Assembly: GCF_000003815.2 (NCBI RefSeq)
Contig: NC_049982.1
Span: 5,361,105 to 5,425,104 of the forward strand
Direction of reading: 5' to 3'
Length of the DNA: 64,000 bases
DNA from: Branchiostoma floridae
Lineage: Eukaryota > Chordata > Leptocardii > Amphioxiformes > Branchiostomatidae
The notes under the pieces are model-generated. The model saw only the letters and a list, made by a program, of their open reading frames with translations, did no database searches and was not told the origin of the DNA. Within the stretch, counting starts at the first letter, position 1; each line of letters starts with the position of its first letter. A program made the translations under genes and the position numbers. Of this stretch, positions 7,018 to 64,000 are shown piece after piece.

Positions 7018-7661
7018 GGAAAATAACTGTATATGGGCTGAGAGGATATACCTTCAGCTACAAGACCAACTGAGTTTCGATCCGTCAACTTCTCTAATTT
7101 TGAAAAATTATAGGGAAAAAAAACATTATTTTCATGTCAAAAATGATGTACAAAATCGGGCATTTTCGCATTGGATAAAACAGATGAAGATTTTTCCGGC
7201 AAGCACGACTGATACTGCCAGAAAGAGGAAAATCTAAAGACTAATCCAGCCAATTATAAAGACAATTCTAGTACTACAGTTTTTTTAAGCATCCACGGCG
7301 CGCGGCATTGCAACTTTGCTTGACACAGCGCTTCAGAGGTAAATCTAGGTCACGGGCCTCTTTACATTCAGGCGTAGGGATATCGCGGAAGCAACGCGCG
7401 AACCAAAACACAATTTGCACCAAAAACACACCATTTTCTACGCTTTTCAGCCACGCTCGTACCCAGCGCCGTGAAGAAGCCATAGATTTAATAGGACGCT
7501 GTGGAGGAGCGTGCTTTTCAGCCATGTAACCATTTAATGTCATTTCGCAGGAAATAATGAGAAATGTCAACTCAAACATGGGCCCTCGGAAGCCTTTCGT
7601 CACTTTTTGGTCGCGGACTACCGCGGACCCCGGTCGCGGAAGAACTGGAGTGTGCACCGTT
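7018..7661. other. Unique flank of the satellite, no supported gene
   Basis: 7018-7270 is AT-rich. 7274-7661 has more balanced base composition and carries part of a 177-codon minus-strand open frame that runs out of the first satellite unit. No domain is recognised. Confidence 0.4.
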
Positions 7662-13600: not shown

Positions 13601-14392
13601 TGGGGGAAAGACGTCTCTTTCTGGGCATATGTTGCGATTATACCTTCTGCGGTTCTCAAGGCCACGATGACGTCATAGCCCTGGGCAGGTGAACACCCGT
13701 TATCACCGCCTCGGTGCACAGAGGGCTTCAGAGGCCGGATCTTCCGCACCAGGTCGATGCGGACGGGCGACGGACATGTCTTGGTGCTAAAGTCCGGCGG
13801 CACTTGCTTGGTATAAAAAAAAAATAGGTGTAAAAAGCCCTGGCGCAATGCATTCCAATGGGACCCAGGGCTTTTTAAGTGCCCTTAAGAGCGGCGACGA
13901 GATGTGCGCCCGCCATGGGTCCCCAGCCATGCCCCTGGCCAAGGCGCTGGGGATGGGCACCATAGTCTGGGGGAAAGACGTCTCTTTCTGGGCATATGTT
14001 GCGATTATACCTTCTGCGGTTCTCAAGGCCACGATGACGTCATAGCCCTGGGCAGGTGAACACCCGTTATCACCGCCTCAGGTGCACAGAGGGCTTCAGA
14101 GGCCGGATCTTCCGCACCAGGTCGATGCGGACGGGCGACGGACATGTCTTGGTGCTTAAGTCCGGCGGCACTTGCTTGGTATAAAAAAAATAGGTGTAAA
14201 AAGCCCTGGCGCAATGCATTCCAATGGGACCCAGGGCTTTTTAAGTGCCCTTAAGAGCGGCGACGAGATGTGCGCCCGCCATGGGTCCCCAGCCATGCCC
14301 CTGGCCAAGGCGCTGGGGATGGGCACCATAGTCTGGGGGAAAGACGTCTCTTTCTGGGCATACGTTTCGATTATACCTTCCGCAGTTCTCAA
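7662..14392. repeat. Satellite array: about 18.4 copies of a 366-bp GC-rich unit
   Basis: The phrase 'aagagcggcgac' starts units at 7662, 8028, 8394, 8762, 9127, 9493, 9859, 10225, 10591, 10957, 11324, 11691, 12058, 12422, 12788, 13154, 13520, 13886 and 14252. The last unit stops at about 14392. Units are nearly identical; they differ by a C/T at the 'agtCcggcgg' site, A-run length and a few indels. Each unit holds the palindrome ATGACGTCAT (CRE/ATF-type core), a TATAAAAAAAATAG stretch, and a 12-bp inverted repeat (AAAAAGCCCTGG...CCAGGGCTTTTT). Because 366 is divisible by 3, open frames recur on both strands: 109 codons on plus and about 100 on minus. I treat these frames as by-products of the array. 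Confidence 0.95.
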
Positions 14393-16137: not shown

Positions 16138-19100
16138 ATGGAGACCCAGGTGCCCCTCCCGGGAGCCCCCCTGGCCGTGCAGACCCAGCCTCCCCCACCA
16201 CAGCCTCCGCTGCCGTCCGGGAAACAGCTGACTCTGCGGTTCCCGGAGCAGAGCCAGTCACTGGTGCGCAGCATGCGCGACTTCCAGCAGCACGGGCACT
16301 TCTGTGACGTCACCTTCCGTGTGCAGGACGAGCTCTTCAGGTGGGAGGTACTTTCACTTAGGGCTGTCTCAAGTCAAGGACCCGTCCTTCTGTCCTGGGA
16401 TGGAAATTTGCTTGATGAAGTTGACTCCATCCATCCCAAAAATCTGAACTTGATGACATGAAACTGTTCAAAATGTGATAGCAAGGAAAATCAACAACAT
16501 GAGCTCCCGAACAATGAGTGGGTTTAAAAAAATTCTAAGCTGGAGAGAGCCCTGCTTTTAGTATAATACTATAGATACTATCCTGAATGTTAATCTCCTA
16601 GTACCTGGTTATGGGCGATGTTTTCTGTCTCTGTTGCAAAAACTTGCAGCTACCACAAAATTGCCAAGCATTGTTTCATCTTTGGATGGGCTTTTGGTTT
16701 TACAAGAATTTCTTTCATTTGAGATAACAGCTCAGCTAGGCATTGTCCTTTAAAACGAAAGCAGTGATTAGTTAGAAGGCTTTGTGGCAATCCCTAGCTC
16801 AAAGCCCAAACTGTGGTGTAGATTACAAGCAGGTCATTCCAACATTTGCCTCTCTGTCTTGTTCACTTTCTGATGATACTGCCTGCATTTCTCCTAGGTG
16901 CCACAAGGTGGTGCTGGCAGCGCGGAGCTCCCTGTTCCAGAGCATCCTATCCGACGCTAACCTCCAGCCCAGCGAGGCCATCCAGCTCGACCTGATCGGA
17001 GCCAACATCTTCTCCGCACTGCTCAGCTACATGTACACCACCGAAATCGTCTTCGTTGACAACGACCGCGATGCACGCGACCTCCTGTCGGCCGCCAGCC
17101 TCCTGCAGCTACATCCGGTGGATACTTGGATACTTTATTAATATTAGATATCAAGTCCATAAGCTAACATACAAGATTTGAAAGCAACTAATCTTCCTGG
17201 ACATTAAATATACAAACAAACATTAGACATAGAAACTACGTAAAAGTCCTTACAGTTAGTGTTTACAGAAGAAGTTTATTTGCAAGTTCGTGCCCGAGGG
17301 CTAATTGCAAGTACATGGTATAAACATACATTCTGCACCTTATCAAGTAGTGATTTTATATATACACAAGAAGCTCCTGTGATTTATGCCCCTATACTGT
17401 CTTTTAACCATTGTAAAGTTCCCAGGGGCAATGCCAGGCCCTCAACTGTATGTGGTCATGTCTTCGACACTTCTCTGAACGCTTGGGCCACAAAATGTTG
17501 GCCTTCCGTACCTGTACCTGTCCCTACAAACTATCTGTAAATATTCGACATAGTGTTTACTAGTAGCCTTTCTTTGATACCAACAGGTGGTGGAGAAGCT
17601 GACCCAGTTCCTGCAGGACAAGAACGCGGCTCTAGAGGCGGAGAGCAGAGCGCTGCTGGCGGGGGAGGGCGGCAGGCAGGTAAGTCTGGAGTCTTTGTTT
17701 TTCTTACTTTTCATTCATTATTCACAGCTAAATGTATCACAAACATTGAAAGCTATTTACAGTAGTACCTTCTAATCATTGATAAAAGTTCTATACCTGT
17801 CAGAAGATGAACCGACAATGTTTTTCCAAGACTGGTTTTTAATCCATCAAAACAAGTCAACTCAAGTCTACACAGATCAGGACTTACTCAGGTCTCCTAA
17901 CCTCCTCCCCCATCATGTGCTGCCAGCCTGGGGCATGTCTAAAGCTATTGCAGTGACTCTGTCACAATACCTTCATTCACACAGACACATGCGTTATGAT
18001 GACATGAATACGCCACTATATGTACTACTGTTGTAGAGTATTTACAATGGCATTTCCTTAGGTACGTCCAGAGATGGTAGATCAGGCGATCAACACCGAC
18101 GAAAGCCGCTTGTTTACGGCGGCCCCGCCGCAGGGTGATGACGTGCACTCACGGATGTTCAGTGAAATACTGAGCGGCGGGACCACCAGCAAAGCTGCTG
18201 ACTCCAGCAAAGAACAGGCAGGAGACCAGGTCAGTCAGGGCAAATTGCTGTATTTCCAGACACGGGCAGATGGCCTACTTTCAGCCTACTTAAAATGATT
18301 AGGTACCCTTGGCAAAGGTGACTGTAGAAATGTTTTTCTTGGGATATGTTTGGATTTGGGAGATGTATATTACAGGTAGGGGTCGTAACCTCTATATCGT
18401 GTTGAAAAAAACGATTTTTTGCAAGGCTTTAGAAGTTAGGTGCTTTGGTGTTGTTTACAGGCAGTGAAAAGGGGTGAAAAGGTGACCACCTATGTTTTGA
18501 TCCCGTTTAACATAATTCTGCCACAAATTTTTTTCCTTGTTTTGTCGTCAAAGTATACTTTAGAGGCTGGACAACCAGGCGAATGTTCTAAAACTCAGGT
18601 AGGTGATTTTTGACAGCCTCTTTCTGTCATGATTCCCATTGTTAAGAATAGTCAGTCTAAATACCGAAATTTGTCCGTCAGCCCTCCACGAGCTCACAGC
18701 AGACTGACGTCCCTGAAGTAACGCCCGATGATGTGGAAGACGAGGGGGAGGAATCCGACTTGGATGCTGGTGCGATCGAAGACGTCTCAGAGTGGGAACC
18801 TGACAGCCCGGTAGCCCCGCCCACAAAACGCAGGCGGGGGAGGCCGCGCAAGGGGGAGTCCCGCGGTAGTGCCAGGCCGAGGAAACGGAAGAGGCAATTT
18901 CCTTATTTGTTTGCATATATGACATGAATTAAGAACACATTGAATGTAGAAGAGAAATACATGCAGGGGGAGGGCAGAAGCCATAAGGGCATTTCGTGGG
19001 CCTCCCCCCAGAGACAGAGGTCACATGAAATAATCTAATTATACATAATCAAATTGAACAAAATAACACATAACATGTGTTGAAATCATGACGTTAAGTA

Positions 19101-22100
19101 ACCTAATGAAACAGAAGTTATATTACAAATAATCAAACATAGATACAAAGCATAATAACCCACAAATTTTAGAAAAGGTGGGGCTTTTCGTCTCCCTCTG
19201 CTTCCAAAAAAGAAGTCAAACCCAACCTGTTTAGAAATAGCCAACTCTAGTATTACAGTAGAATATTGTTCATAACTGTCCATTGTCACTTGTATATCTA
19301 CTATGTTTATACCTTGTACTTGCAATTAGCCCTCGGGCACGAACTTGCAAATAAACTTCATTGTTTATATATGTTCTAAAAAAAATACAAATCAAATAGA
19401 AATAAGTATTTAATTTTACCGAAAACAGAAAGGAGAAGGGTATTCCTGACTGGAACCTGTCGAAGGATCAGCAGGCCTGGGTGAACCAGACCCTGGAGAA
19501 GGTGGAGAAGAGGCAGAGGAACTGTCCCGAGTGCGGAAAGGTCTTCAAGATGCCGCTCGACATGAGGAAGCACTTGATACAGGTTTGTAGTCTGTTTGTT
19601 TGATTGTTTATTTGTTTATTTATCTAGGAATCTCCATTAATGTTGACATACAACCACTACTCTTTATGGAGTCCTCCTACTCTTCATGGAGTCCTCCTTT
19701 CTGTAGTACTATATCTTGTGTTGTTAACTCAATATTGCAGCCATTCTCCAAATATGCCAGCATAACTGTACATGGTGCTTACTGATTACAATATAGTGTT
19801 TATGACAAAATGACTAGACACTGTGTCTGAAAATCTATGTTTTTAAAGCAGTTCAACTTTTATCATATGTTATTCTATCATACTGTTATTTTAAGGTAGG
19901 ACACATATTTGTCTACAGGGGTAGTAATTCCATTTTGTATCTGACCATTTAGTAAACTTTTCAGGATGGTATGTATGGTATCCAAGCTGATTCAGGCTTG
20001 CAAACAGAAATGGAAATATGCCCTGCAGAGGAGATAGGCGCCAGCATGACAATTGTTGTGCTGCCCCTACGGCTAATTAATCAGCCTACTGATTAAAAAG
20101 CTATGGGACTGATGATGATGAAACAGGACTGGTTGTAACTGTTGTTCCTTGGTCTGTTTTGGGTGCAGATCCACTCGCCAGAGCCTTTGTTCTGCTGCCA
20201 GTACTGCCAGATGACCTTCCGCACGTGGATGGGGATGTCTCGCCATGAGAAGGGGCATGAGAAGGAACAGGAGGGCATAGGTAGGGGATTTTCCTACTAA
20301 AGTAGAGGAATTGATTAAGTAAAAGAGGAAAGCTGCAAGTTGCTGCATATTCATTTTTGTGAACCTAAGATTGGAGTTTTGCACCTAATGTTCTTGACTT
20401 GGGGTGCACTAGTGCACCTACAAATTTCAGTTTTGCTGAACAGATATAATTTTATTTCATTCAATGTTGTGCACATATTCCTAACAATAAATGTTACCCT
20501 GCCTGTACATAGAAAGTGTTTGTCTTTCAGTAGGGATGATATCATGTTACTGAATCAGGGCTGTCTCCAGCTTTGAAATTTTTCCTGTACCTCTCATTGT
20601 TGGGAAGCCCATGTTGTTAATTTGGATTGTTAAAAATAGTGCCATTCTAAGCAAATGAAAATGCATTTTCATAAATTTTGTCCCAACAAGCAAAATGCTG
20701 GCCTAGGACGGAAGAATGGGTCCTGGAGACAACCCTGTACTTAATAATCCGTTTATATCAAATTTATAATATGCCTACTGGAATGTTCTGTGTTACCAGG
20801 TGAAGTCGGTGTGATAGAGGGAACTCCTGTCACACCCCAGTCAGAGAGAACGAAGCACCAGTTCACAGAAGAGCAGAAGCAGTGGATCCGGGACACGCTG
20901 GAGGATGTTGGGAAGAGACAGAAGAACTGTCCGTCATGTGACAAGGTGTTTGACACACCTGCCGCCATGAGGAAACACTTGCTGCATGTGAGAGTCTCTC
21001 ACTGCTGTTCTCTTATATACAATTCTTGTGTCTGTTTAAGCCTTAAAGTTTATTTAGGAGAAACTCAAATTGGCCACTTGGCCAATTTTGATTGAGGTCA
21101 TGAGAGAAGAGGTAAGGTACAAAACAACAAAGCTTCAAGCTCAAGTTCAAATATAAGTCTTACTTGCCACCTTTTCAGTTGATATTAGAATAGATTGAGT
21201 CAGAGAATGAAATGTTCCTTCCTTATGCCTTGCTAGGTTAACACAAATTCTCCGACCTGTAATGTTTGTGGCTTGTATTTACTAATTCTTGGTGCAGAAG
21301 CATCAAAATAAACTACCGGTAGTCCTGATTTATGACAATTACATAAAGGTTCTGAACTGAACTGAAGGTTCCTTCCTTCCTAGGTCCACATAGTCCCTGT
21401 TCCCCTGTAATTCCTGTGAGTTTTACTGACCAACTCTAGGTATAGAACTGTCGAAAGGAGGTTTACTTGAAATGCTCTGTTTATGACAGTCTTACGAATG
21501 TTTGTTCCTGCCAGGTCCACTCGAAGGAGCCCCTGTTCTCCTGTAACATCTGCTCAGCAAAGCTGCGTACGAGCAGCGGTCTGCGGCGCCACTCCCAGAC
21601 CCACATCCAGAACAAGCAGCACGTCTGTCCCATGTGTGGCAAAACCTTCAGTCGTAGGGACCATCTAGTGAAGCATGTCAGGGTCCATACAGGTAGGGGG
21701 TGTATGTGTTTGTTGGTGGGAAGGATACTGGTATTGCACATCCAAAACAGGCAGCACGTACAAAAGTTGCTGAATGTGTCTGTTATGATTAATCAATCAA
21801 TCAATCAATCAATCAAATGGTTTATTTGTCAGTTTCATGATTTAGAGTCAGATTGTATTGAATGTGGTGTAAGAGAATCTTGGACACATGTTTCCATCTC
21901 TTGAAACTTGGGTGGAGATTGGAATACCTACCAGGATTAATAGTAAGTGCTGTTGATAGAATGTATAGTTATAGGTAAACAATTTGCTTGTCAAGCCTAT
22001 GTCACTGCCGTGTATATTGACCCATTGCTGACGTCATACTTCTATTCATGTCAAGTGACATAGGCTCCAGGTCATTTTAACTTGACATTTCAACTTTAAG

Positions 22101-26800: not shown

Positions 26801-28260
26801 TTACCTCACAAAGAATGATTTCAATTGATCCCAGAATGACCGCGGCTTGATTGTGTCAAACAGTTTTGTGTTATCATAGTCTTCATTCATAGCTCTGTCT
26901 CTTGCCGTCCTTTTCACTTCTGTACTAACATCCTTCCATGTAGCCTGACTACTTGTGATCTCTTGTATGATTCTATCCATTTCTTTCCTCCCTTCTTCAA
27001 ACAAGTTATCTGTGTATATTCCATTTTCTTTTACAATGTCATCAACTAACCTGATTAACTTAACCAGTTGCATTCTCAGTATGATCTCATCTTTGGAGAT
27101 GTTGTTGAAGAAGACACACCTATTGCCACATTTTTTAAGTAAATCTTGTAGGGCTTGAGATTTAGGTCTGAGATAGTCCACTTCACTAGCCATAAGTTCA
27201 TCATTTCCAGTAATGAGAAGTAAAGAATGTTTAAGGAACCTTTCCCCAAACATGAGTTCAAATATTCTGAGTGTCTCAGCCTCCTCCCAGGTGAATTTTC
27301 CTCTTCTGAGGACAAGAATAACTGTATGTAGACCTTCAGGGAAGAATGTTACAATACGACAGAGTTCTTTACAGATGTCTGTTACATTACCAGTGTCAAA
27401 CACTCCTGGAGTGTCCAGTACAGTAATTTGCCGATCCTTTTGCCTGATATGTTGCTCACATCTAGCTTTGTCAGAAACTTTGTACTCCTTTCCAGTGATA
27501 TTATTCCCTGTGTGACTTTTCCCTACTCCAGTTTTCCCTACCAGTACAATGCCAAGTTCTTCCCCCTCTGGGATTTGGCAGAGGGGAGAGAGATCTGCAG
27601 TGACGTACCTTCTAGCTCTATTAGACAATTCAGAGATACACTCAATAAGAGTTTTTAATGTCTCCTGCTTGTTTGCTAAATTACCTCTATTTTCAATTGC
27701 AATGACCCTGTTGTTGCATTGTTCAGTAATTTCTTTCTTGTCCTTTGGCAGTCCTTCAAGGAACTCTGGGATATCCTCCTGCTGAGCATGTGTGACCAGG
27801 ATGACAAGATGCTCATACAGTCCATCACCTAACAGCCTGTGGAGGGACTGGAACACTTGGACCTCCTTGTCTTCATTCCTCTGAGAGTCCTTGTAGTCCC
27901 AGACCAGACAGATGGCATCAAAACCCTCAGGAATCATCTTCACAGCTCGGACCAGCTCCTCAAACTCAGACTCAGTCATCTCATGGGAGACTCCGGGGGT
28001 GTCGACTACTGTCACCTTCCTGCTGACTCCATCAACCTCAAGGCTGCTGCTGCCCAGGCTGGACTTTTCTGTTCCTCCTCTCCTGGTGACTCTGAAAACC
28101 TCATGTTCTAAGATGGCGTTGCCTGTGTGGCTCTTGCCATTGTTCTTACAGCCCACAAGCAGGATATTTGTTGACATTTCTTGTTGTACAGCAGTCTCCC
28201 GGTCTTTCATGGTGGGATGCTCTGTCTTATCAGATGCCTGATTTGTGGCCGATGATGAAT
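26801..28260 (-). CDS. Exon: two AIG1/GIMAP GTPase domains in tandem
   Basis: 486 codons plus stop. First G domain: P-loop GCKNNGKS, then DTPGV (G3) and the GIMAP-type VTHAQQED region. Second: GKTGVGKS, DTPGVFDT, then LLITGNDEL (G4-like). An amphipathic, basic C-tail ends in DQLKSFFVR without a membrane anchor. AIG1 GTPases are septin/dynamin-related and GTP-driven oligomerisers. The acceptor is 28263-28261 (ttctgcttcag). The same frame is also open upstream to an ATG at 28309, which would give a 502-residue stand-alone protein. Confidence 0.9.
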
Positions 28261-31200
28261 CTGAAGCAGAATTATACAACTCTAAATAGTCTTTGAATAA
28301 GCTACACATTGACCCTATTCTTCAATAGTGATGGGCTGAAAACACTCTTCATTTGGAATAAAGTTAAGCTTGAGTAACAGCTGCATGTATCATCTTAAAA
28401 TTGCCCTCTCCTGTAAAATTGGATTCAATAGAAACAGCATTCATTACCTCGCACAGATAAGCCTTCCATAATTGATGATCACACACACACAGATACATGT
28501 ACACGCAGAGTCGCAGACAGACACACACACACACATACAGATACATGTGCGCACAGAGTCGCAGACAGACAGACACACACACATACAGATACATGTATGC
28601 ACAGAGTCGCAGACAGACACACACAGATACATGTACACGCAGACAAGCACACAAGTACACATAAACACACCCAAATTATGTACACAGACACACACACATA
28701 CACATGGTATTGACAGGGGAACTGTGGCTTTACAAAACCTTTTAGTCTTAAAAATAAAATATTAACCATCTGAGAACCAGTTCCCCTAATATACTGTCTC
28801 ATAACCCTCTGATATCTGGTTTCAAATCTTTTTTTGCAAACAAATCTAAAATTCTTCCTGATAGAGTCAATTCCAAGTCACCGAGATGGTTTTGAAATAA
28901 TATTTGTAATAAGTTTGAACTATTTTGAGTAAAAGAACATTTCAGTCACTTAAGTTCGAAATTGTTCAAACATTTCAAAATGAAAGTTTAAACATGTTTG
29001 AACCTTTTTATATTTGTTGGAACATTTGGGAAAGTAATGATATAATTATCTCTTTATTTAGAACAATTTTCAAACATCTATGTGTTTTTGTTACTGTTCC
29101 AACATGTTCCAACATTTTGTGTCATTTTTTCCCTCCATAAAAACTTTTATTGACACCATAAACAAAGCTGCTAAGCTTGGTCCTTTGTTTGGCTCTTATA
29201 TTTTTAGATTTTCTCCAGTATACACTGGTGAGTCTTTTGTGAGAAGGTGGCAGACAGACATAATTTCCTGCGCTTGGCAGGGATGTGTGAATTGCCCTCT
29301 TCCCAGCCCACTGACCCAGTTTCATCATGTTGTTTCCATGTTCGAACATGTGATCACAAATGATGCATCTATGTTGGAACAGTTTAGAAACTAACAGAAA
29401 TAATGTATTTGATGTTAGAAATGTTTCTAACATGTTTGAATACTATAGAAATATTTAGAACGTCACATAGATGTTATAAATAGTTCTAAACAGTTACTTA
29501 TCACAGTTAGATTGTTAAAAAGATTTCCAAAATGTTGGAACAAAAGGCAAGAAACACCCTCTCGGTAATATGGAATCGACTCTAATGATCACATCACATA
29601 TCAATTTGAACAAATGGCTCTACATCCTGATTTAACCTTTCAAGTAAAGATCACTTAAATTGATAACGTTACACCAATAACACCAATTAGTTAAGTGCAA
29701 AACATACCTGTTTGTTCTTCTTTGCTTGCTTCACTAGAAAATTCCTCTGGCGCAGGCTGTTTCTCCTTTCTCTTTGAGTCATCCGCCTGATTTTGACGCT
29801 CCATTGTCTGCTTGCCCTTCAGCTGGCCAAAAAGGGATTCTGGCTTGGCTGCTGTGTCCTCACTTGTTTCCTGTGCTAGTTGGAGTTCTTGGGTCTTCTC
29901 TGAGAGAAGCTTCTGCAATGCCTCATTATTCTCTCTCAGTGTTCTGACTTCATCTTGAAGGTTCTCATTACGATTAGACAGTTTTTCTTTTTCATCTGTC
30001 AGTTTCTCAATTATGTGAGTGAGTGTGTCTACTCTTGTCTTATTGATATCCTGTAACTGTTCTATTGTCGTCTTGTTTTCCACAAGATCTTTCTGTGCTT
30101 TCTCGTTCTCCTCTGTAAGCATTGTTACCTGCTTGCTTAGTCTACGCATCAGATCTTCTGACCCCTCTTTGGCTGTCTGTAGCTGTAATTCTAGCTGACT
30201 CACCTTTTGTTCTGTGTTCTGTAACTGTTCTATTGTCACTTTGTGTGCCAACAGGACTTTCTGTGCTTTCTCCTTCTCCTCTTTTAGCATTGTTACCTGC
30301 TTGCTCAAACTTCGGATCTGAGCTTCTGAACTTTCTTTCTCTACTTGTAGCTGTAGTTGGTGTTTTAGCTGACTGAGCCTTTGTTCTGTTTTTCTCACCT
30401 GTTGTAGAGCTGTCTGTACTTGTCTGGCTGTAAAGGTCACTGAGTGTATACTTATATCTACTGTGCCTTTATCAGCCTGATCCTTCCTGCTGAACCTAGC
30501 TAGGTCCAGGCCCATCAGACTGGAATGGTCCACATGTCTTGTGGGGGATGGCAACGTCATGATGTTGTCCACAGAAGTGGTATGATCCAAACCTGTTTAG
30601 TAGGAATTATGGAAAACAAACATTTATGAGGTGTCACATGCAATCAATAGAAACTGTCATTGAGTAGATCTCACCTAATGTTTCATTTAGTACTAATATG
30701 ATTGAGAATTTTTACCCTACTTTGCAAGCTTAGAAAGTAGTAAAAATTGGCCAAAGATGATGATGATGAATGGCCTTTTAAAGATATAAATAACTGACAG
30801 CCTGAATTGGTCCTGAAGACTAACTTGGTCCTACTGCCCATCCGCTTGTTTTGATTACAATTGTGTATATTTCCACCTCTTTCACAAAGGGCAAACTTAC
30901 TTTAAGTATGTGAATATAAAAAAAAAGCTGCATTGATATAATCAGAAAAAAAAAATGTGAATTTACCTTTAGCAGCAGATGTGGTGAGTCTGTAGAACAT
31001 GGCCTTCCTGAAGTCCTCCACATTGATGGTTGCCTTCACTGTGATTCTCTTTCCAAGCTGTGATCTAACCTCACTTAACAAACAACTGAAAAGCATGTTG
31101 CTCAGTTCCCCACCTCTGTACATAAACCAGAGTTTGCATAGCCCAGCCAAGTCTGTACATTGCAGGTAGAATGCTAAGCAGCCACTTCTCACACTTCTGA

Positions 31201-34200
31201 CATCAACACCTTTGATTTTCTCAAGTGTCTTGATTGATTCAATAATGTCAAGTACATCATCTACAGTTTTGATTTCTGGCACTACCTGTCTTAGCAAAGC
31301 AAGAGTTTCATCTGTCATGGTGATTTCAGTTAGAAGGATCTCGCTTGCAGTGGCAAAGTTCCTCATATGCTTAGGGGTCTTGACACTAGGTTTCACTTGT
31401 TCGAGTATCTCCACCTTAATGGGCAAGAGAGGAGGCATTTCTGAAAGAGAAATTGGTTTAATTGTAATGAAAAGTGATTAAGCACTGTGGGCAAAATTAC
31501 TGGTAAATGTACCTGACACCAATATGGATATAATACAACTGGCTTCTTGACAAATGTGCAATGTAGCCAGGTAAAGAAAACTTCCATTGTCAGCTGACCT
31601 GATAGCTGGAGCATAATATTTGTTTTGATAACAAATCTTACCTGGCTTTGAGGCTTTAGCACCATCACCAGACTCTGCTGTAGAAGCACTTCTCTTTCTC
31701 CTCTCAACTTGAGCTGGTTGTGGCATTCCATTCCCTGGAAACAATTCAATTCTGAATTTAAGTTGGATGGTTGGATGGAATCTTAATTGTTATACAGGTT
31801 TTGGTGTAACTGCTCTAATCAAGTGTGTAGATTAGACCAAGCATGCATTTACTAAAAAAACTGTAACCAAATATATGACCATCATCTATTATCCAATGGC
31901 AAATTAATGTTACCTGATAATTAATTCTTTCTGTCAAAATTCCTCCCATCTTTCAACTTACTAGTATTAAGCTGCTGTCAAAACTTTATGTTTTGACCAT
32001 GTGATAGCCAAAGATCATAATGATTCACCTCCATCCGTACAGGCTTTGATGAATTCCTGATGAGACTCTTTCCAGTACTCTGTGGACAGAAGCTCCCTCC
32101 TACATCTTGCTGCTGTTTCAAATGCTGCCTTGTTGTTTTCCAACACTCTCTTAATGTTTTTAGCCCAGTGATTTACATTGGCACTATCTTCACTTTCATC
32201 CATGTCAACAATGGAGTTATGTAGGTCATTTACATGTTCACGAATCAGGTCTGCTAATCCAGACCTGCTTGAAATAAGAACAGGAACGCCAGCAGCAATG
32301 GCCTCCAAGCCAATTAGTCCAAACGGTTCAGCACGGGAGGGTATCAGGACCAGGTGGGCCTGCATCATGTGTTGGTGGATGTCCATCAGTGAGTCACAAT
32401 GTTGGAGCGTCATTGGTAAGTTAGCGGATTTACTGCGATCAATGATTGCCTTGCTTGTTTGAACGTCATCTTTGCTGACGACACAGACACGCCATTTAAT
32501 ATTAATTTTCTCTGCAACAATGCTAAGGGCCCCAGCAGCAAGGTCAAGTCCCATCACTTTCTCGACACCTGTGACGATGCCAATAGACAGGACCACCATT
32601 ATCTCTGACTTCTTGTATTCAGTCTGTGCATCTTCAAAGATCTTTGAAGACCTTGGAACAAACTTAAAATGGTCAGGTCGCTTATTGGCAGGTATAGCGC
32701 TGAACTGGATTTGAAAATGGTCAAAAATCTTGTTTCCAAGGGAAAGGACCACATCAGCCTCTTGTGCATCTTCAAGGATGGACTTTTCCTTCTTACCTAT
32801 GCCCTTGGCCTCCTCCTCTCCTTTGTAGTACTCAGTATCCTCCGGTATGTCATGGGCAAAGAGGATGACTTTTGCATCTTGAAACCGTTCTTTCTTTATC
32901 CTGATTGCAGCCCTGCTTGTGATGTCAAAATGTCCGACAATGCTCCTTACTTTGGAGGGAATGTGTGGGTATCTACCAACGTGGTCAAAAGTCAACCAGG
33001 CCAGAGATGGAGTCCTTGCGTCTTCTGAGTAGAGACTAGGCAGTAAAAGTTCCACTCCATCATTGCATGCATCTTGTTTGTCCTCCTTAGTTGCCTTTAA
33101 AACAGTACTGTACAAAGGTATGTCTGGCACGTGTTCCCGGAGTGTTCCTACCAGCTGCCTGTGTACGGAGGAGATCCCAGCCTTAAGTTTGCCGTACTCC
33201 TCATGGAGCAGCAGAATGGCAGGGATCTCTGTGAATGAACAACAGGTGTGTTTTTGAACGGATGGTTCCATTCCCATGTTTGGTTTCTTGGTAGGATTTG
33301 GCAAAATCAAAGAAAAATTTCTCTCCCCCATAACTGCCTATTAAAGGGACTGCAGAGTTTTCAAACACTCTGAAAACACTTAGTCTAGTGTTGGGACCTC
33401 AAAAAGCTACAAACAAATTTTCATGATATTTGCTTTGTAGCCTTATAGGCAACTTGGGTAGGGATTGAAATCATAAGATAAAAAATATATGTATAATACA
33501 GGACTTATAAATAATGAAATAATCCTGGAGATGAAGATGGAAGGCTCTATGGCTGTGAGCCCATCAAATATTCTGAAGCATTAGTAGAAAACTCTGCTGT
33601 CCCTGTGTCCTACAATAGTAATGCTTCCATAACGTCTTAAGTTCACATAATCAAAAAAGGGTTTGGAGACCTCATACCTCCATGAAATATTGAGCCTTCG
33701 TAGATTTATGGACTCATTAATTATGCAAATAAGGCTATAATTAGCATACTAGTAATCTATTTTATTAATTATGGTCTTCTTGACAACAAACACATATACT
33801 GGCTGTAAAGAAGTCCTTTCATTTGGCAGAAGTTCATGTTCATAATTATCAATTATGCAAATGACTCTTACATTTAAATGATTTATGCAACATGGTGTTC
33901 ATCTTTAACAAACTTACATATGCCACAATGCATTTATTAAGATAATCCCCACCATTTACCACTTTGGAATTGTGTCACTTTCACATCAATTATCCTTTGT
34001 TATATTATAATCCTTAAAATATTTGTTACAAATTAAAATCCCTGAAGTTCCAGAGCAAGAAGCTAAGAGGCCCAAACCTACACAGCCGCTTCCTTATATC
34101 AAAAGCTATCTGGTGCAAATATATTAAGACCTCAACATGCCCAGGACAAAAAATACAAACAAAAACCGGGGGATTACAATCGACCTTGACCTTTGTCTTC

Positions 34201-34517
34201 CCACATACCAAATATCATTACAATCAATTTAGCGGTTGTAAAGTTATGTTGACCACAAATATCCGGAAATGCACGTACACATACACACACAGACCAAAAA
34301 CTATACCTCCATTTTTCATGGAGGTATTAAACAAAGATCATCAGTATCACCCAATACCCACCAACATACCAACCTATACTACTACTAGCTACTTGCTTGC
34401 ACTACCTTGCTTCGCGCGCACACATGCATGATAAAACAGAAATTGTGCATTTCACGGATGATTGGATCTTAACGAAAAGCTGTGTACTTACTTTATCACG
34501 TGAACTGACTTACCCAT
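26801..34517 (-). CDS. Predicted glycosyltransferase / TRADD-N-like / coiled-coil / dual AIG1 GTPase fusion (about 1371 aa)
   Basis: Six minus-strand exons join in phase: 34517-34514 (ATG plus one base), 33228-32029, 31734-31642, 31440-30967, 30592-29708 and 28260-26801 (4116 nt, stop TAA). Every intron is GT-AG and every junction is phase 1. Residues 2-401 are a GT4-like GT-B glycosyltransferase. Residues 402-432 are a basic linker, 433-590 a TRADD-N-like module, 590-885 coiled coil, and 886-1371 two AIG1/GIMAP GTPase domains with P-loops at 922-929 and 1127-1134. No signal peptide or membrane segment is visible, so it is probably cytosolic. The plan recalls NLR-like immune sensors, but no function is proven. 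Alternatively, the glycosyltransferase and AIG1 parts could be separate transcripts; the ORF upstream of 33228 could supply another start at 33331, and the AIG1 exon is also open to an ATG at 28309. Confidence 0.7.
28485..28705. repeat. CA-rich minisatellite in an intron
   Basis: About 3.5 units of roughly 56 bp combine (CA)n tracts with 'gagtcgcagacagacac' and 'cagatacatgta'. It lies in the intron 28261-29707. Confidence 0.85.
28863..29583. mobile_element. TIR element (721 bp) in an intron of the fusion gene
   Basis: Ends 'agagtcaattccaagtcacc' (left) and the imperfect inverse at 29560-29583 (right). The interior is full of 'ttggaaca'/'tgttccaa' motifs. It shares ends with the element at 47630-49049. 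No coding capacity. Confidence 0.6.
29708..30592 (-). CDS. Exon: long coiled coil with internal duplication
   Basis: 295 codons, very rich in E, K, Q and L with heptad spacing from about codon 55 to 235. A block of about 57 residues occurs twice (RSLSKQVTMLKEEKEKAQK / RRLSKQVTMLTEENEKAQK, each followed by TIEQLQ). It would mediate oligomerisation. Acceptor CAG 30595-30593, donor ACAG|GTATGT at 29707; phase 1 at both ends. Confidence 0.8.
30967..31440 (-). CDS. Exon: TRADD-N-like domain
   Basis: 158 codons. An N-terminal helical part is followed by a strand-helix-strand block: SGCLAFYLQC, then LAGLCKLWFMYRGGELS, then KRITVKATINVEDFRKAM. This alternating pattern (hydrophobic strand, Cys, LxxLWxxYxxGxL helix, strand, acidic helix) resembles the N-terminal domain of TRADD and related modules in invertebrate NLR-like proteins. 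The assignment is by pattern only. Acceptor 31443-31441, donor AAAG|GTAAAT at 30966. Confidence 0.55.
31642..31734 (-). CDS. Exon: short basic/serine linker
   Basis: 31 codons including ERRKRSAS, a basic patch that could be a nuclear-localisation or flexible linker segment. Acceptor 31737-31735, donor CCAG|GTAAGA at 31641. It is phase 1 at both ends, like its neighbours. Confidence 0.65.
32029..33228 (-). CDS. Exon: GT-B glycosyltransferase domain (GT4-like)
   Basis: About 400 codons. The N-terminal Rossmann start ILLLHEEYGKLKAGISSVHRQL-type strand-loop is followed by IVGHFDITSRAAI and VILFAHDIPEDTEYY. The C-terminal nucleotide-sugar half has VVLSIGIVTGVEKVMGLDL and the EX7E signature EPFGLIGLE (fusion residues 302-310), then AIAAGVPVLISSRSGL. 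These are the marks of group-1/GT4 retaining transferases. The preferred acceptor (tgttgttcattcacag) is in phase 1, and the 3' donor is GGAG|GTGAAT. Donor sugar and acceptor cannot be told from sequence. Confidence 0.85.
33663..34327. mobile_element. Dispersed 'acctccatgaaa' element, forward copy
   Basis: Starts at 'gacctcatacctccatgaaa' and ends at 'tttttcatggaggta', so its ends are inverted. Its 3' part ('accaaatatcattacaatca', ACACACACAGAC) recurs at about 58025-58135 and inverted at 59669-61108. It lies in the first intron of the fusion gene. Confidence 0.6.
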
Positions 34518-42540: not shown

Positions 42541-44346
42541 TTAAATTGGCATGGACTTAGCTAGAAAATAAACAACAATGGCAGGCCACAAAACAAAAAG
42601 AATAATACAGAAGATGAAGAGAATACATGAACAAATTGATACGTCTTTGACCTTACGTGTCAGGGAATAACAGTAATGTCCAAATTGTCTAATCCCTCTA
42701 TTTTGGAACATGGGGCCTTCATTTTCCAGCAATGGTCTGTTTTCAGATGTATCACTGCTTGAATCAAGCTGCTGGTTAGTGTCATCTTTGCTTTGAGTTT
42801 TGTTTATCATGCTATCAGCCAACATGATAAGTTGAATCTGTTGCATTCTCCTCTTTGTCTCATCCTTTGTTATATTGTCAAAGAAAACATAGCGCTCACC
42901 ACAATTTTGTACAATGTCAGTGAGTTCTTTGGGTGCAGATGTTAGATAGTCATTCTCGTTGCATGGTAGTTTGTCCTTACCTGTGAACAAAACAATAGAC
43001 CAGTTCCAGACATCTGTCAACATGTCATGGATCCTATCAGCCATTACCACATCTCCTCTTGTAATCCTACCAAGACTTACAATCATAATTAGAATATAGG
43101 TGGCACAGATTTTCTTAATGTCTTCAATCTCTGTTAGGAGTCTTTTTTCTTCTTCAACACAGTTCTGTGTTAAAGGTGGTGTGTCTACAACTGTTATCTT
43201 GCGACCTCCCATGTGTGATTCTCGACGAACATAGTCCTGTGTTTCTGATGACATTCTATCTGAAACTGAGAACACATTCTGACCGATGATGCTGTTGCCT
43301 GTATGGCTTTTCCCTACTCCAGTGTTTCCCAAAAGTACGACACAGAGGTCTTCTCCTGGTGGGATGTGGCAACAAGGAGACAGGTTTGAGGCTGTGTATC
43401 TCCTTCCACTTTCCTTGGACAATTCTTGAATGAGGCTCAGAAAAAGTTTTAACTGTTCACTTGCAGCTGGTTCTTTGCCATTCAGCTTGTCATCCATGGC
43501 AATAATCTTCTCATGAAACCTACAATAAGAAGATGTGTCTTTCATTTCTTTCTGATCAGAATCTGTTTGTTCATTATGGAATCCTGATGGAGCTTGCTGC
43601 TGGTTACTAGAATTAGACAGTTCATCAACTGCTGCCTGGCTGACTCCAGCCTCATTGATAATGTGTTTCATGCAAGTTATTCTGTATTGCGCATTTGCCT
43701 TGTCAGCAATTTTCTTCATGTTTTCTGGTAGTCCCTCGATGAACTCTGGGATGTCCTTCTGCTGAGCATGAGTGACCAGGATGACAAGATGATCGTACAG
43801 TCCATCACCAAACAGCCTGTGGAGGGACTGGAACACTTGGACCTCCTTGTCTTCATTCCTCTCAGAGTCGTTGTAGTCCCAAACCAGACAGATGGCATCA
43901 AAGCCCTCAGGAACCATCTTCACGGCTCGAACCAGCTCCTCAAACTCAGACTCTGTCATCTCCTGGGAGACTCCGGGGGTGTCGACTACTGTCACCTTCC
44001 TACTGACTCCATCAACCTCATGGCTGCTACTGCTGAGGCTTGCCTTCTGTGTCCCTCCTTTCCTGGTGACTCTGAAGGCCTCCTGTCCCAGGATGGTGTT
44101 GCCTGTGTGGCTCTTGCCGTTACCCTTACAACCCACAAGTAGCACATTTAGGTCTTGCAATTGATTGTGTGTCAGTTTGTCCAATGTGACTAGATCTTCT
44201 GTTTCAGTCAGGTTGTCAACAGATACTGATACATCAGCCATTTCCACATTTACATGTAAGCTTGTAGGAAAGTCAACGCTAGTTGAAGTATTGCTTCCAT
44301 TCCTTTTTCTAACATTGCTGTCTCTTTGATTTCTACCCCCAAACAT
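42541..44346 (-). CDS. Membrane-anchored dual AIG1/GIMAP-like GTPase (601 aa)
   Basis: A single open exon with ATG at 44346; an acceptor-like site (gattgttgcag) lies just upstream on minus, so a 5' UTR exon is likely. First AIG1 domain: P-loop GCKGNGKS at 72-79, DTPGV at 122-126. A Ser/Gln-rich linker of about 130 residues follows (about 200-320). Second domain: P-loop GNTGVGKS at 330-337, with G3 altered to DTPP (378-381). The C-terminus carries one strong hydrophobic segment at about 571-596, then KSMPI, which would tail-anchor the protein as in several vertebrate GIMAPs. The first G domain is almost identical in DNA to those at 28.0, 54.0 and 63.8 kb; the second is diverged. Confidence 0.9.
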   Translation of the reverse strand: MFGGRNQRDSNVRKRNGSNTSTSVDFPTSLHVNVEMADVSVSVDNLTETEDLVTLDKLTHNQLQDLNVLLVGCKGNGKSHTGNTILGQEAFRVTRKGGTQKASLSSSSHEVDGVSRKVTVVDTPGVSQEMTESEFEELVRAVKMVPEGFDAICLVWDYNDSERNEDKEVQVFQSLHRLFGDGLYDHLVILVTHAQQKDIPEFIEGLPENMKKIADKANAQYRITCMKHIINEAGVSQAAVDELSNSSNQQQAPSGFHNEQTDSDQKEMKDTSSYCRFHEKIIAMDDKLNGKEPAASEQLKLFLSLIQELSKESGRRYTASNLSPCCHIPPGEDLCVVLLGNTGVGKSHTGNSIIGQNVFSVSDRMSSETQDYVRRESHMGGRKITVVDTPPLTQNCVEEEKRLLTEIEDIKKICATYILIMIVSLGRITRGDVVMADRIHDMLTDVWNWSIVLFTGKDKLPCNENDYLTSAPKELTDIVQNCGERYVFFDNITKDETKRRMQQIQLIMLADSMINKTQSKDDTNQQLDSSSDTSENRPLLENEGPMFQNRGIRQFGHYCYSLTRKVKDVSICSCILFIFCIILFVLWPAIVVYFLAKSMPI

Positions 44347-45011
44347 TGATATTACTAAGCTGCAACAATCGTTGTCACAAGGAACTTTGCATTATCTTGA
44401 GAGATCTGTGCTTATTTGAGAGCATTTAGAGGTGCCCTTCTTGGATGTTTCACATTGACTGAAGTGTCCAACAGATGTATTTTGTTGTCAACAGTTTCCT
44501 GTCATGAGAGAAAAGAATGAAATCTTAGTGGAAATCAAATTAGTTAATGCCTGTTTAGCTTTAAGGCTATTTTTGTTTTGACATTCAGTACATGAGAGTA
44601 ATCTGATGAATAGAAGTACTGAACCAGAGGTGACCTAGAATGATTAGATACATGTAACTTTCAGTACTTATTTTTGGAAATAAACATGCTAGTAAAAAAG
44701 TTATTATGTCACATTTAGTTAGTATGTTTCATTACTCATGATCACTAGTGGGAGGTTCCATGCACTAACTGCATGGCCCTGTATAGCTACCCTGAGAGAA
44801 TATTGATCTTAATGGTCCAAAAGTCCTGACAATTGGCGATCAAATTATGATTCCCTGGTGAAGCACACACTTACATTGAGTGGGTATAATTCACACAAAA
44901 AATTATGGACTAATGAAAGTTCAGGATGAATTTTATTATAATTGTGATCATATCATAGAAAGTGAATTATGTGGTTAGAATATATGCAGTATAAGGAGGT
45001 TCAGAGCAATT
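44347..45011. other. Upstream region of the anchored AIG1 gene
   Basis: AT-rich. It probably holds the 5' UTR exon and promoter, but I cannot place them. Confidence 0.35.
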
Positions 45012-52794: not shown

Positions 52795-54299
52795 TTACCC
52801 TGACATTACTTCTACCATCTTACCAAATAATGATTTTACTTGGTCACACAGTTGGTGCCAGTTTGACTGGAGCTTTTCATAAAACTTGCCAAACAGATTT
52901 GTGTTACGATAGTCTTCATTCATGGCTCTGTCTCTTGCAATCTTTTTTACTGCCCTAGTAAGATCCTTCCAAGTAGCCTTACTACCTGTGATATCTTGTA
53001 TGATTTTGTTCATTTCTTTTCTCCCCTCTTCAAACCAGTCATCATTGTATACTCCCTCTTCTTTCGTGATAGTATCGACTAACCTGATCATATTAACCAG
53101 TTGCATCCTTAGTATAGTTTCATCTTTGGACACATTGTTAAAGAAAACACATCTATTACCACATTTCTTAAGGACATTTTTCAGGTCATCAGGAGCAGTT
53201 TTGAGATATTCCTCTTCACTGCTAGTAAGTTCATCCTTTGCTGTGATAAGAAGTAAAGAATGCTTAAGAAGCCTTTCGCCAAACATGAGTTCATATAATT
53301 TAATCGTCTCAGCCTCCTCCCAGGTGAATCTGCCTCTTCTGAGGACAAGAATAACTGCATGAAGACCATTTGGGAAGAATGTTACAATACGACAGAGTTC
53401 TTTGCAGATGTCCTCTACATTACCAGTGTCAAACACTCCGGGAGTATCCAGCACAGTAATTTGCCGATCCTTCTGCCTGATATGTTGCTTACATACACGG
53501 GTTTCTGACTTCGCTTTGTCAGAAACTCTGAACTTCTTTGTTCCTGTGATATTGTTCCCTGTGTGACTTTTCCCCACTCCAGTTTTCCCTACCAGTACAA
53601 TACCAAGTTCTTCCCCTTCTGGGATTTGGCAGATTGGAGAAAGATCTGAGGTGACATACCTTCTAGCACTATTAGACAATTCAGAGATACACTCATTAAG
53701 TGTTTTTAATGCCTCCTGCTTGTTTGCTAAATTACCTCTATTTTCAATTGCAATGACCCTGTTGTGGCATTGTTCAGCAATTTCTTTCATGGCATTAGGC
53801 AGGTCGTTAACAAACTCTGGGATATCCTCCTGCTGAGCATGTGTGACCACGATGACAAGATGCTCGTACAGCCCATCACCAAACAGCCTGTGGAGGGACT
53901 GGAACACTTGGACCTCCTTGTCTTCATTCCTCTCAGAGTTGTTGTAGTCCCAAACCAGACAGATGGCATCAAAACCCTCAGGAACCATTTTCACAGCTTG
54001 AACCAGCTCCTCAAACTCAGACTCTGTCATCTCATGGGAGACTCCGGGGGTGTCGACTACTGTCACCTTCCCATGGCTGCTGCTGCCCAGGCTGGACTTT
54101 TCTGTTCCTCCTTTCCTGGTAACCCTGAAGGCTTCCTGTCCCAGAATGGTGTTGCCTGTGTGGCTATTGCCATTACCCTTACAGCCTACTAATAGTAGGA
54201 CAGTACTCATTATTTGTCTGCTGTAGACACTTGTTGGAGTGTCAGACAAACTTGTTTTTTTGGTAGAGGACTTCTGTTTTTGGGGAGCATTTCTTCTTT
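52795..54299 (-). CDS. Dual AIG1/GIMAP-like GTPase with degenerate first P-loop
   Basis: The open frame to TGA at 52795 encodes two AIG1 domains, closest to the AIG1 exon of the fusion gene. The first in-frame ATG is 54210 (about 471 aa). The frame stays open upstream to a good acceptor (ctctgctcccag) at 54302-54300 in phase 1, so an upstream exon probably supplies the start. A candidate exon is 54674-54605, ending ACAG|GTAGAG. In the first domain the Walker A lysine is replaced (GCKGNGNS), and nine codons before VTVVDTPG are missing. The second domain is intact (GKTGVGKS, DTPGVFDT). It may be a pseudo-GTPase/GTPase pair. There is no membrane anchor; it ends FGKMVEVMSG. Confidence 0.85.
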
Positions 54300-54799
54300 C
54301 TGGGAGCAGAGGAGCATGACCTATTTGTTTGTCAGAGGGATGGCTTCCTCTCAGTTGATTCTGTTACTGGGAGGAAGCCAGTTGTCTCCTATTAAGCTCC
54401 TTTATATTTGTTCTGACTTGACCCTAGTATGCTGGGTTGATAAGCATCTCCAAGTATATATTTGCTTTCCTTCTTGGAACTGTTGTGTGTCTTCTGCAAT
54501 GTAATGTTTCTTGGAAGAGCTGCAAGAAACAGATAAGATAGTCAGATAATGAAAACTACTAATTTGCGAGCAAGAAAACTTAAGGCATAATTACTTTACT
54601 CTACCTGTCTCAAAATCAGCAGCAAAATCCAGGATAATTTCATCACCATCTTTCCTCTGATTGAATGAAAATCCCTGTGGTTGAATGGACCATACCAATT
54701 TTTTTAGAAATTAGACTGCACTGGACAATGTGTGATTGATACATTCAATTGCTTCCAATGCCATGACACATCTCTAACTTAGTGTGTACTTTATTTTAC

Positions 54800-62740: not shown

Positions 62741-64000
62741 CTATATGAGAACTGCTGAATTAGCTCTGGTGTCACGATTTGTCATCTTCAGAACCAGTCT
62801 GATTAGTTTCACCAGCTGCTTCCGTCTTAATGTCTCATCCTTTGTTATGTTATCAAAGAACACATACCTGTCATGACACATCTTTAAATCATCCCTAAAT
62901 TTTAGAGGTGCATCTGTGATGTAATCTTCCTCAGACTCAGTTAACTGGTCTTTGCCTGTGATAACCATAATTACATGGTCAGAGAATTTGTCTCCAAGGA
63001 TGCGCTTTGTAATGCTTGCCATTTTTTCATCATCTGCCCCATACTTGCCTCTTTTTGATATCAAAAGAATTGCATCAAAATCTGCTGACCTTTCTTGAAA
63101 CCACTTTTCAACTGTTGTTTCAGACTCCTCACAAGACAAATCTATACCTGGTGTGTCAACTATATTCATTGTCAGGCTTCCCACTTTCCCTCTGAACTGT
63201 TCACAGGTGTCTGTTTTGGATACAGTAGTGTCTGAAACTGTGAAAGTATTAGTGCCAGCAATGCTGTTTCCTGTCCGACTCTTACCAACCCCTGTTTTGC
63301 CCACAAGCAGCAAGTGAATTTCATCTTTTTCCTTTTCACCAAGTTGTGGCATTTTACAGACTGAAGAGAGGTCAGCAAGAGTAAACCTTGAAGCCCCCAA
63401 TGTACTGGACAGTTTTGAAATTACATCAATCATAGTTCCTGTGACAGTCACTCTGTCTGGGCAGTACTTTGTAATGCTCTTCATGGAGTCAGGCAACGTG
63501 GTCAAAAACTCTGGAATGTCCTCCTCTTGAGCATGTGTGACCACGATGACAAGATGCTCGTACAGTCCATCACCAAACAGCCTGTGGAGGGACTGGAACA
63601 CTTGGACCTCCTTGTCTTCATTCCTCTCGGAGTTGTTGTAGTCCCAGACCAGACAGATGGCATCAAAACCCTCAGGAACCATCTTCACAGCTCGAACCAG
63701 CTCCTCAAACTCATACTCTGTCATCCCTAGTTTCCCTCCTTTGGATACTCCAGGTTCATCCTCTACTGCCGTCCTTTGGGTGATGCCAGGGGTGTCGACT
63801 ACTGTCACATCAATACTGACTCCATCAACCTCATGGCTGCTGCTGCCCAGGCTGGACTTCTCTGTTCCTCCTTTCCTGGTGACTTTGAAGGCCTCCTGTC
63901 CCAGGATGATGTTACCTGTGTGGCTCTTGCCATTGCCCTTACATCCCACAAGTAGTAGGTTCAACTTGATGTCCGTAGGTACATTTAACTTATCTTGTGA
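62741..64000 (-). CDS. Dual AIG1/GIMAP-like GTPase, 5' end outside window
   Basis: The open frame runs from the window edge (in frame from 64000) to a stop at 62741: 419 visible residues. First domain: P-loop GCKGNGKSHTGN, G3 DTPG, then about 18 extra residues (including a second PGVS) before MTEYEFEELV. Second domain: GKTGVGKSRTGN, DTPGID, MVITGKDQL (G4-like). It ends shortly after the G5-like YVFFDN region and VKLIRLVLKM, so it lacks the C-terminal tail of the other copies and has no membrane anchor. TTG at 63964 is not needed as a start because coding continues upstream. Confidence 0.87.
   Translation of the reverse strand, partial: SQDKLNVPTDIKLNLLLVGCKGNGKSHTGNIILGQEAFKVTRKGGTEKSSLGSSSHEVDGVSIDVTVVDTPGITQRTAVEDEPGVSKGGKLGMTEYEFEELVRAVKMVPEGFDAICLVWDYNNSERNEDKEVQVFQSLHRLFGDGLYEHLVIVVTHAQEEDIPEFLTTLPDSMKSITKYCPDRVTVTGTMIDVISKLSSTLGASRFTLADLSSVCKMPQLGEKEKDEIHLLLVGKTGVGKSRTGNSIAGTNTFTVSDTTVSKTDTCEQFRGKVGSLTMNIVDTPGIDLSCEESETTVEKWFQERSADFDAILLISKRGKYGADDEKMASITKRILGDKFSDHVIMVITGKDQLTESEEDYITDAPLKFRDDLKMCHDRYVFFDNITKDETLRRKQLVKLIRLVLKMTNRDTRANSAVLI

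Follow-up and report, generated by a model that had tools for sequence, protein, structure and literature searches.

A six-exon gene on the minus strand of a 64,000-nucleotide stretch of the Branchiostoma floridae genome (the window, C4:5361105-5425104) very probably joins a GT4-conflict glycosyltransferase domain, a TRADD-N-like domain, a coiled coil and two AIG1 (GIMAP-type) GTPase domains in one polypeptide. The explanation we favor on balance is a single gene of an exon-shuffled lancelet immune family, in which the AIG1 pair would be the switch and the GT4 domain a binding or scaffold module. The first-pass annotation had proposed six minus-strand exons encoding 1371 codons, and this model was rebuilt exactly, with zero internal stops, GT-AG at all five introns and entry into each of exons 2 to 6 in phase 1. 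The order and identity of the modules that it gave were borne out by direct matches to PF20706 and PF04548 and, for TRADD-N, through relatives. The genome searched comprised 513.4 Mb in 431 contigs; paralogous loci are given by their L numbers.

Table 1. Features of the gene and neighboring AIG1 frames, in window coordinates.
Feature	Position	Strand	Basis
Whole gene, six exons	34517-26801	-	
Coding exon 1, ATGG, phase 1 out, donor GTAAGTCA	34514..34517	-	Model rebuild
Exon 2, GT4-conflict glycosyltransferase domain, aa 2-401	32029..33228	-	PF20706 and paralogs
Exon 3, short basic linker VERRKRSAS..., phase 1-1	31642..31734	-	Model rebuild
Exon 4, predicted helical region and TRADD-N-like domain, aa 433-590	30967..31440	-	Homology
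Exon 5, conserved GLDHTTSVDN.. leader and putative coiled coil	29708..30592	-	20 genome rows, own included
Intron, coiled coil to AIG1, most doubtful join, contains a 48-bp tandem repeat	28261..29707	-	
Exon 6, linker, two AIG1 (GIMAP-type) GTPase domains and stop	26801..28260	-	PF04548
Stop codon TAA	26803-26801	-	Read in sequence
Neighbor AIG1x2 open frame, apparently stand-alone (by eye)	42541..44391	-	
Neighbor AIG1x2 open frame, apparently stand-alone (by eye)	52795..54363	-	
Neighbor AIG1x2 open frame, extends past the window	62741..64000	-	

The two terminal modules were identified directly. Exon 2 matches PF20706 (GT4-conflict) with 196.9 bits (E 7e-58, cut-off 26) over positions 2-383 of the 385-position profile, and a PDB sequence search with this exon returned RfaG/WaaG and glycogen synthases among 33 sequences at E ≤ 0.001, which fits a GT4 fold. 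Exon 6 matches PF04548 (AIG1) in two stretches with 242.2 bits (E 4.7e-72), and the P-loops GCKNNGKS and GKTGVGKS can be read in its sequence.

Exon 4 has no direct Pfam match, including to PF20694 (TRADD-like_N). We call it TRADD-N by homology, because its paralogs match PF20694 and the family profile aligns to TRADD-N exons on C13. Its family numbers 12 genome rows, own included, and 8 of the 10 aligned members match PF20694 (best E 0.00056); the exceptions are the exon of this gene and that of L040. The six members given individually score 15.3-20.1 bits, below the 23.7-bit cut-off. Frames located 0.5-1.2 kb after GT4 in three C13 genes pass PF20694 with 38.8-45.5 bits, and hhalign aligns the exon 4 family profile to these three exons with E 2.5e-6 and a probability of 88.8. 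At the position of the uS motif described for TRADD-N by Kaur et al. (PMC8195603), this gene and the three C13 exons have GC, and the other nine of the 10 aligned members have GS. Two AlphaFold models of exon 4 are of low confidence (pTM 0.47 and 0.39) and contain no strands, and neither gives the RRM-like TRADD-N fold. Foldseek against the PDB with the first model returned no matches at E ≤ 0.001, and a PDB sequence search with the family alignment returned four matches, the best only at E 0.57. In animals, TRADD-N acts as an adaptor downstream of the TNF receptor (PMC7159879). Genome-wide, TRADD-like_N is found in 69 rows; lancelet TRADD-N sets of 13-129 and 46-71 proteins are reported for two clades (PMC8195603). 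Fifty of the TRADD-like_N rows lie in a 0.6-Mb array at C17:18.30-18.90 Mb that holds none of the GT4 rows listed.

Exons 1 to 5 look like one gene, because the borders of the GT4 and TRADD-N exons recur in paralogs and the 4-nt first exon recurs in one of them. The GT4 exons of the 10 closest paralogs (L010-L019) all have the acceptor and donor at the identical place and in the identical phase. The other 19 GT4 paralogs have an AG at that place in 14 cases, some probably by chance, and the donor pattern in 7, and several of these exons terminate with a stop codon. Nine TRADD-N exons tested for borders have the phase 1 donor in every case and the phase 1 acceptor in eight. Exon 1 with its donor is the sole ATGNGTRAGN on the minus strand between window positions 33229 and 37000, and its donor score is ordinary (reached by 5.1% of background GTs). 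The 12-mer ATGGGTAAGTCA, which spans exon 1 and the donor, also occurs 1135 bp upstream of GT4 in L011. It is absent from the approximately 1.5 kb of upstream sequence checked in the nine remaining close paralogs, and L012, L032 and L033 carry looser ATGNGTRAG matches dissimilar to exon 1 of this gene. A short basic exon resembling exon 3 by eye lies between GT4 and TRADD-N in L044 and L045. Exon 5 looks like a coiled coil behind a conserved leader, and its borders and phase 1-1 arrangement are repeated in L054. The coil is internally doubled by an imperfect 168-bp duplication (1.8 copies, window 30051-30355).

The first-pass annotation rested its case for one gene on exact phase agreement. 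The agreement is real; its weight is reduced, because the GT4, TRADD-N and coiled-coil exons are all symmetric (phase 1 in, phase 1 out) and agreement is expected even between unrelated modules of this kind. The conclusion that all parts probably belong to one gene was upheld by the recurring exon borders, the splice sites at 29708 and 28260, and a sister locus. The join from 29708 to 28260 is the least certain of the gene, and splice scores, a coding-like linker and the sister locus argue for it. Donor 29708 and acceptor 28260 are each equaled by 0.18% of background sites (1116 GTs and 1123 AGs), as scored with a splice matrix derived from a single family (17 donors, 23 acceptors). Acceptor 28260 has the highest score (10.7) of the 83 AGs between 29.67 and 28.10 kb, the runner-up being 28410 (6.7), and it alone among the five best acceptors opens the AIG1 frame. 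Four other AGs reach 2.9, the score of the weakest accepted acceptor of this gene, and open 4 to 18 codons (14 before the stop for 28410); weaker acceptors such as 28410 could therefore be used. The linker of 28 codons after 28260 has a coding score reached by 2.6% of 609 open noncoding 27-codon frames, which overlap one another and were scored with a coding model trained on the other exons of the gene and its neighbors; 20% of noncoding 27-codon frames are open at all. The sister locus, L051 at C4:5.447 Mb in the same AIG1 array, carries exons for Death (49.5 bits), TRADD-N and AIG1x2, the first being a candidate partner of the TRADD-N. A 294-bp phase 1 intron separates its TRADD-N from AIG1 and the phases agree; no acceptor for its TRADD-N was seen at the homologous place.

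The principal alternative is two genes. The first, with GT4, TRADD-N and the coiled coil, would end soon past 29.7 kb or use a short exon in the following 1.4 kb, and the second, an AIG1x2 gene of its own like the neighbors, would splice a 5' UTR exon to 28260. The AIG1x2 frames of the array number six on a single strand (C4:5388076-5446912, window 26972 to beyond the window end), and those at 44.4 kb, 54.4 kb and C4:5.438 Mb look stand-alone by eye. The AIG1 exon also contains usable internal ATGs, one of them ahead of the first P-loop at a position shared with the 54.4-kb copy, which is the closest AIG1 relative among those compared (73.5% identical). Because of these ATGs and the stand-alone-looking frames, 28260 could serve a 5' UTR intron. 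Read-through past donor 29708 ends after five codons, 28410 provides a candidate terminal exon, and AATAAA occurs at 29151 and 29058, both in the last intron; none occurs within 1.2 kb past the stop of the gene. Against two genes stand the strength of donor 29708, the rank of 28260, the in-frame coding-like linker, and the sister locus with TRADD-N only 294 bp from the AIG1x2 exon. Long open frames also follow the coil at the three other coiled-coil loci read (L054-L056). Comparison of intron 28261-29707 with the available sequence gave only short or repeat-like matches, none of them upstream of the other AIG1 frames in the array. We consider two genes unlikely.

The single gene that we favor combines modules that elsewhere occur in smaller sets. 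A same-strand TRADD-N exon lies within 15 kb downstream of GT4 at 11 of the 73 listed GT4 places and an opposite-strand one at none; the 24 GT4 rows outside these places have no TRADD-N nearby, which gives 11 of 97 overall. Four pairs are in the wrong order, each due to the TRADD-N of a tandem neighbor. AIG1 follows TRADD-N within 6 kb at 2 of the 31 places listed, both in this AIG1 array, where TRADD-N rows precede only the two AIG1x2 frames at the array ends. This gene is the single place, of 18 listed, where AIG1 lies within 10 kb downstream of the coiled coil, and the single one of 73 listed where it lies within 15 kb downstream of GT4. The order TRADD-N to coiled coil is found at C13 as well. 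The downstream tails at the other loci read are TPR repeats (L057), NHL repeats inside the coiled-coil exon (L056) and a nearby kinase (L055). L054 has a DED exon (45 bits) upstream and, downstream, a frame whose zinc-finger match falls below the cut-off. At C12:3.247 Mb and C18:16.355 Mb the module order is reversed, with a same-strand coiled-coil exon preceding GT4. Kaur et al. put forward retrotransposition for such fusions (PMC8195603, section 11). Symmetric phase 1-1 exons, any two of which remain in frame when spliced together, point to exon shuffling too.

The GT4 domain of this gene has lost a motif that most of its paralogs keep. The R and K of the GR..KG motif presumably bind donor phosphates in GT4 enzymes, and an E-x7-E motif is a feature of active GT4 glycosyltransferases. 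Comparisons were made with the 29 best-scoring paralogs of 97 genome rows. Where most of these have SIGRV..EKLKG, this gene has SIGIV..EKVMG, changing GR..KG to GI..MG (R to I, K to M). The R is kept in 24 of the 29 and the lysine of KG in 27, and this copy alone among the 30 compared lacks both basic residues. The R is replaced in L016 (V), L021 (G), L022 (G), L024 (K) and L028 (K), so that two of these have K instead, and the KG lysine is replaced in L018 (Q) and L025 (E). Erosion of GR..KG is thus not limited to this gene. The E-x7-E is retained in the C-terminal part of the domain as EPFGLIGLE; its second E is D in L011, L018 and L019. Stops are present within some GT4 paralogs. Because both basic residues of the presumed donor-phosphate motif are gone, sugar transfer by this copy is doubtful and the activity may have been lost. 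The simplest reading is that the domain would be retained for binding or shape.

A working GT4 glycosyltransferase effector, turned on by the AIG1 pair of the same single gene, is the next alternative. The possible sugar-transferring effector of the first-pass annotation is of this kind, and Kaur et al. propose that GT4 domains modify invader molecules (PMC8195603). Its E-x7-E is intact, as an active enzyme would have it. Purifying selection also appears still to operate on the GT4 exon, as judged from dN of 0.20-0.29 and dS of 0.58-1.25 against seven listed paralogs. In the first of the two RfaG/WaaG alignments shown, the I of this gene aligns with a serine, so this solved transferase is itself without the motif R and loss of R alone need not abolish activity. 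The M of this gene aligns with a KG lysine that is retained in both alignments, however, and no paralog compared lacks both residues. An active effector is quite unlikely.

Misassembly or pseudogene decay that brought the modules together, to which the tandem array region and the stops in some GT4 paralogs might point, is highly improbable, since all six exons are open, their borders are intact and dN is well under dS in the GT4, TRADD-N and AIG1 exons (dN/dS 0.21-0.37 by a Nei-Gojobori-style method in the 18 comparisons with finite dS, rough figures as dS is often near 1; two further AIG1 comparisons are saturated).

The favored single gene of an exon-shuffled family suggests the following mechanism. 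The family plan would be an N-terminal module (GT4, DED or Death) followed by TRADD-N, in some members a coiled coil, and then a C-terminal module that varies and in this gene would be the tandem AIG1 pair, related to the surrounding AIG1 array. GIMAP-type GTPases undergo GTP-dependent assembly. The AIG1 pair is the likely switch, by analogy and because it is the sole NTPase module with P-loops, and it might assemble the protein under GTP control, perhaps on membranes, upon sensing an invader. Assembly would cluster the coiled coil and TRADD-N and pass the signal on to partners, and the GT4 end would serve in ligand binding or as a scaffold rather than in sugar transfer. The single genome suggests a source of variety, as the symmetry of the exons allows in-frame recombination of GT4, Death or DED modules, TRADD-N, coiled coils and variable tails. 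With its GT4 donor motif likely lost, the gene bears on whether "effector" domains can turn into sensors or scaffolds, and through its tandem AIG1 pair on GTPases as switches of immune proteins inside cells.

A bolder proposal is an NLR analogue without a STAND ATPase, in which a dead GT4 would sense a sugar-nucleotide or glycan, the AIG1 pair would cluster TRADD-N, and many such proteins would be made by phase 1-1 exon swaps; we regard it as a long shot of about the same standing as two genes. The layout of adaptor, oligomerizing module and nucleotide switch may be shared with NLRs (NACHT or NB-ARC receptors), but Pfam searches of exons 2, 4, 5 and 6 at E ≤ 1 gave no NACHT, NB-ARC or LRR match. 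The earlier statement that the AIG1 pair replaces the NACHT/NB-ARC of an NLR is too strong, as no NACHT match lies downstream of the paralogous loci read (L054-L057), where the TPR, NHL, kinase and weak zinc-finger tails are found.

The modules belong to published immune-type pairings (PMC8195603), in keeping with the immune context first suggested. Kaur et al. 2021 (PMC8195603) describe GT4 followed by TRADD-N and LRRs in cephalochordates, hemichordates and cnidarians, as well as fusions of TRADD-N with AIG GTPases. The combination, noted as unfamiliar at the outset, is therefore familiar in both its pairings; the consulted text of PMC8195603 does not describe the four-part order, and its supplementary tables might still contain this gene. 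What appears to be new here is the union of the GT4-TRADD-N and TRADD-N-AIG pairings in one gene, once among the places listed. The gene resembles the GT4-TRADD-N-LRR proteins of PMC8195603 in the placement of GT4 before TRADD-N and in lineage-specific expansion, and differs in having a coiled coil and tandem AIG1 pair in place of LRRs and in the lost GR..KG motif. With TRADD-N-AIG proteins and the sister locus it shares TRADD-N before AIG1, and with the latter the AIG1 array; unlike the sister, with its Death, TRADD-N and AIG1x2 exons, it has GT4 instead of Death and an intervening coiled-coil exon. Lancelet GIMAPs include CARD-AIG1(-HINT) and two- or three-AIG1 proteins (PMC12373286), the common point being AIG1 domains with a death-fold type partner, and term counts found none of "GT4", "glycosyltransferase" and "TRADD" in the main text of that paper. 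A CARD search (149 genome rows) placed some beside AIG1 genes elsewhere and none in this AIG1 array. Literature searches returned no paper uniting TRADD-N, glycosyltransferase and AIG1, nothing for GT4-conflict, and one paper on TRADD-N in Branchiostoma. Two coral studies (PMC12314368, PMC4083563) reportedly pair a group-1 glycosyl transferase with NACHT.

Other elements were observed in the window. Positions 7660-14392 hold 18.4 tandem copies of a 366-bp unit (99% matches), and one plus-strand frame, 121 codons long, is open in many of these units. A BTB/POZ frame (54.2 bits, 16776-17141) and a C2H2 zinc-finger frame (45.1 bits, 21446-21904), both on the plus strand, are perhaps one BTB-zinc-finger gene.
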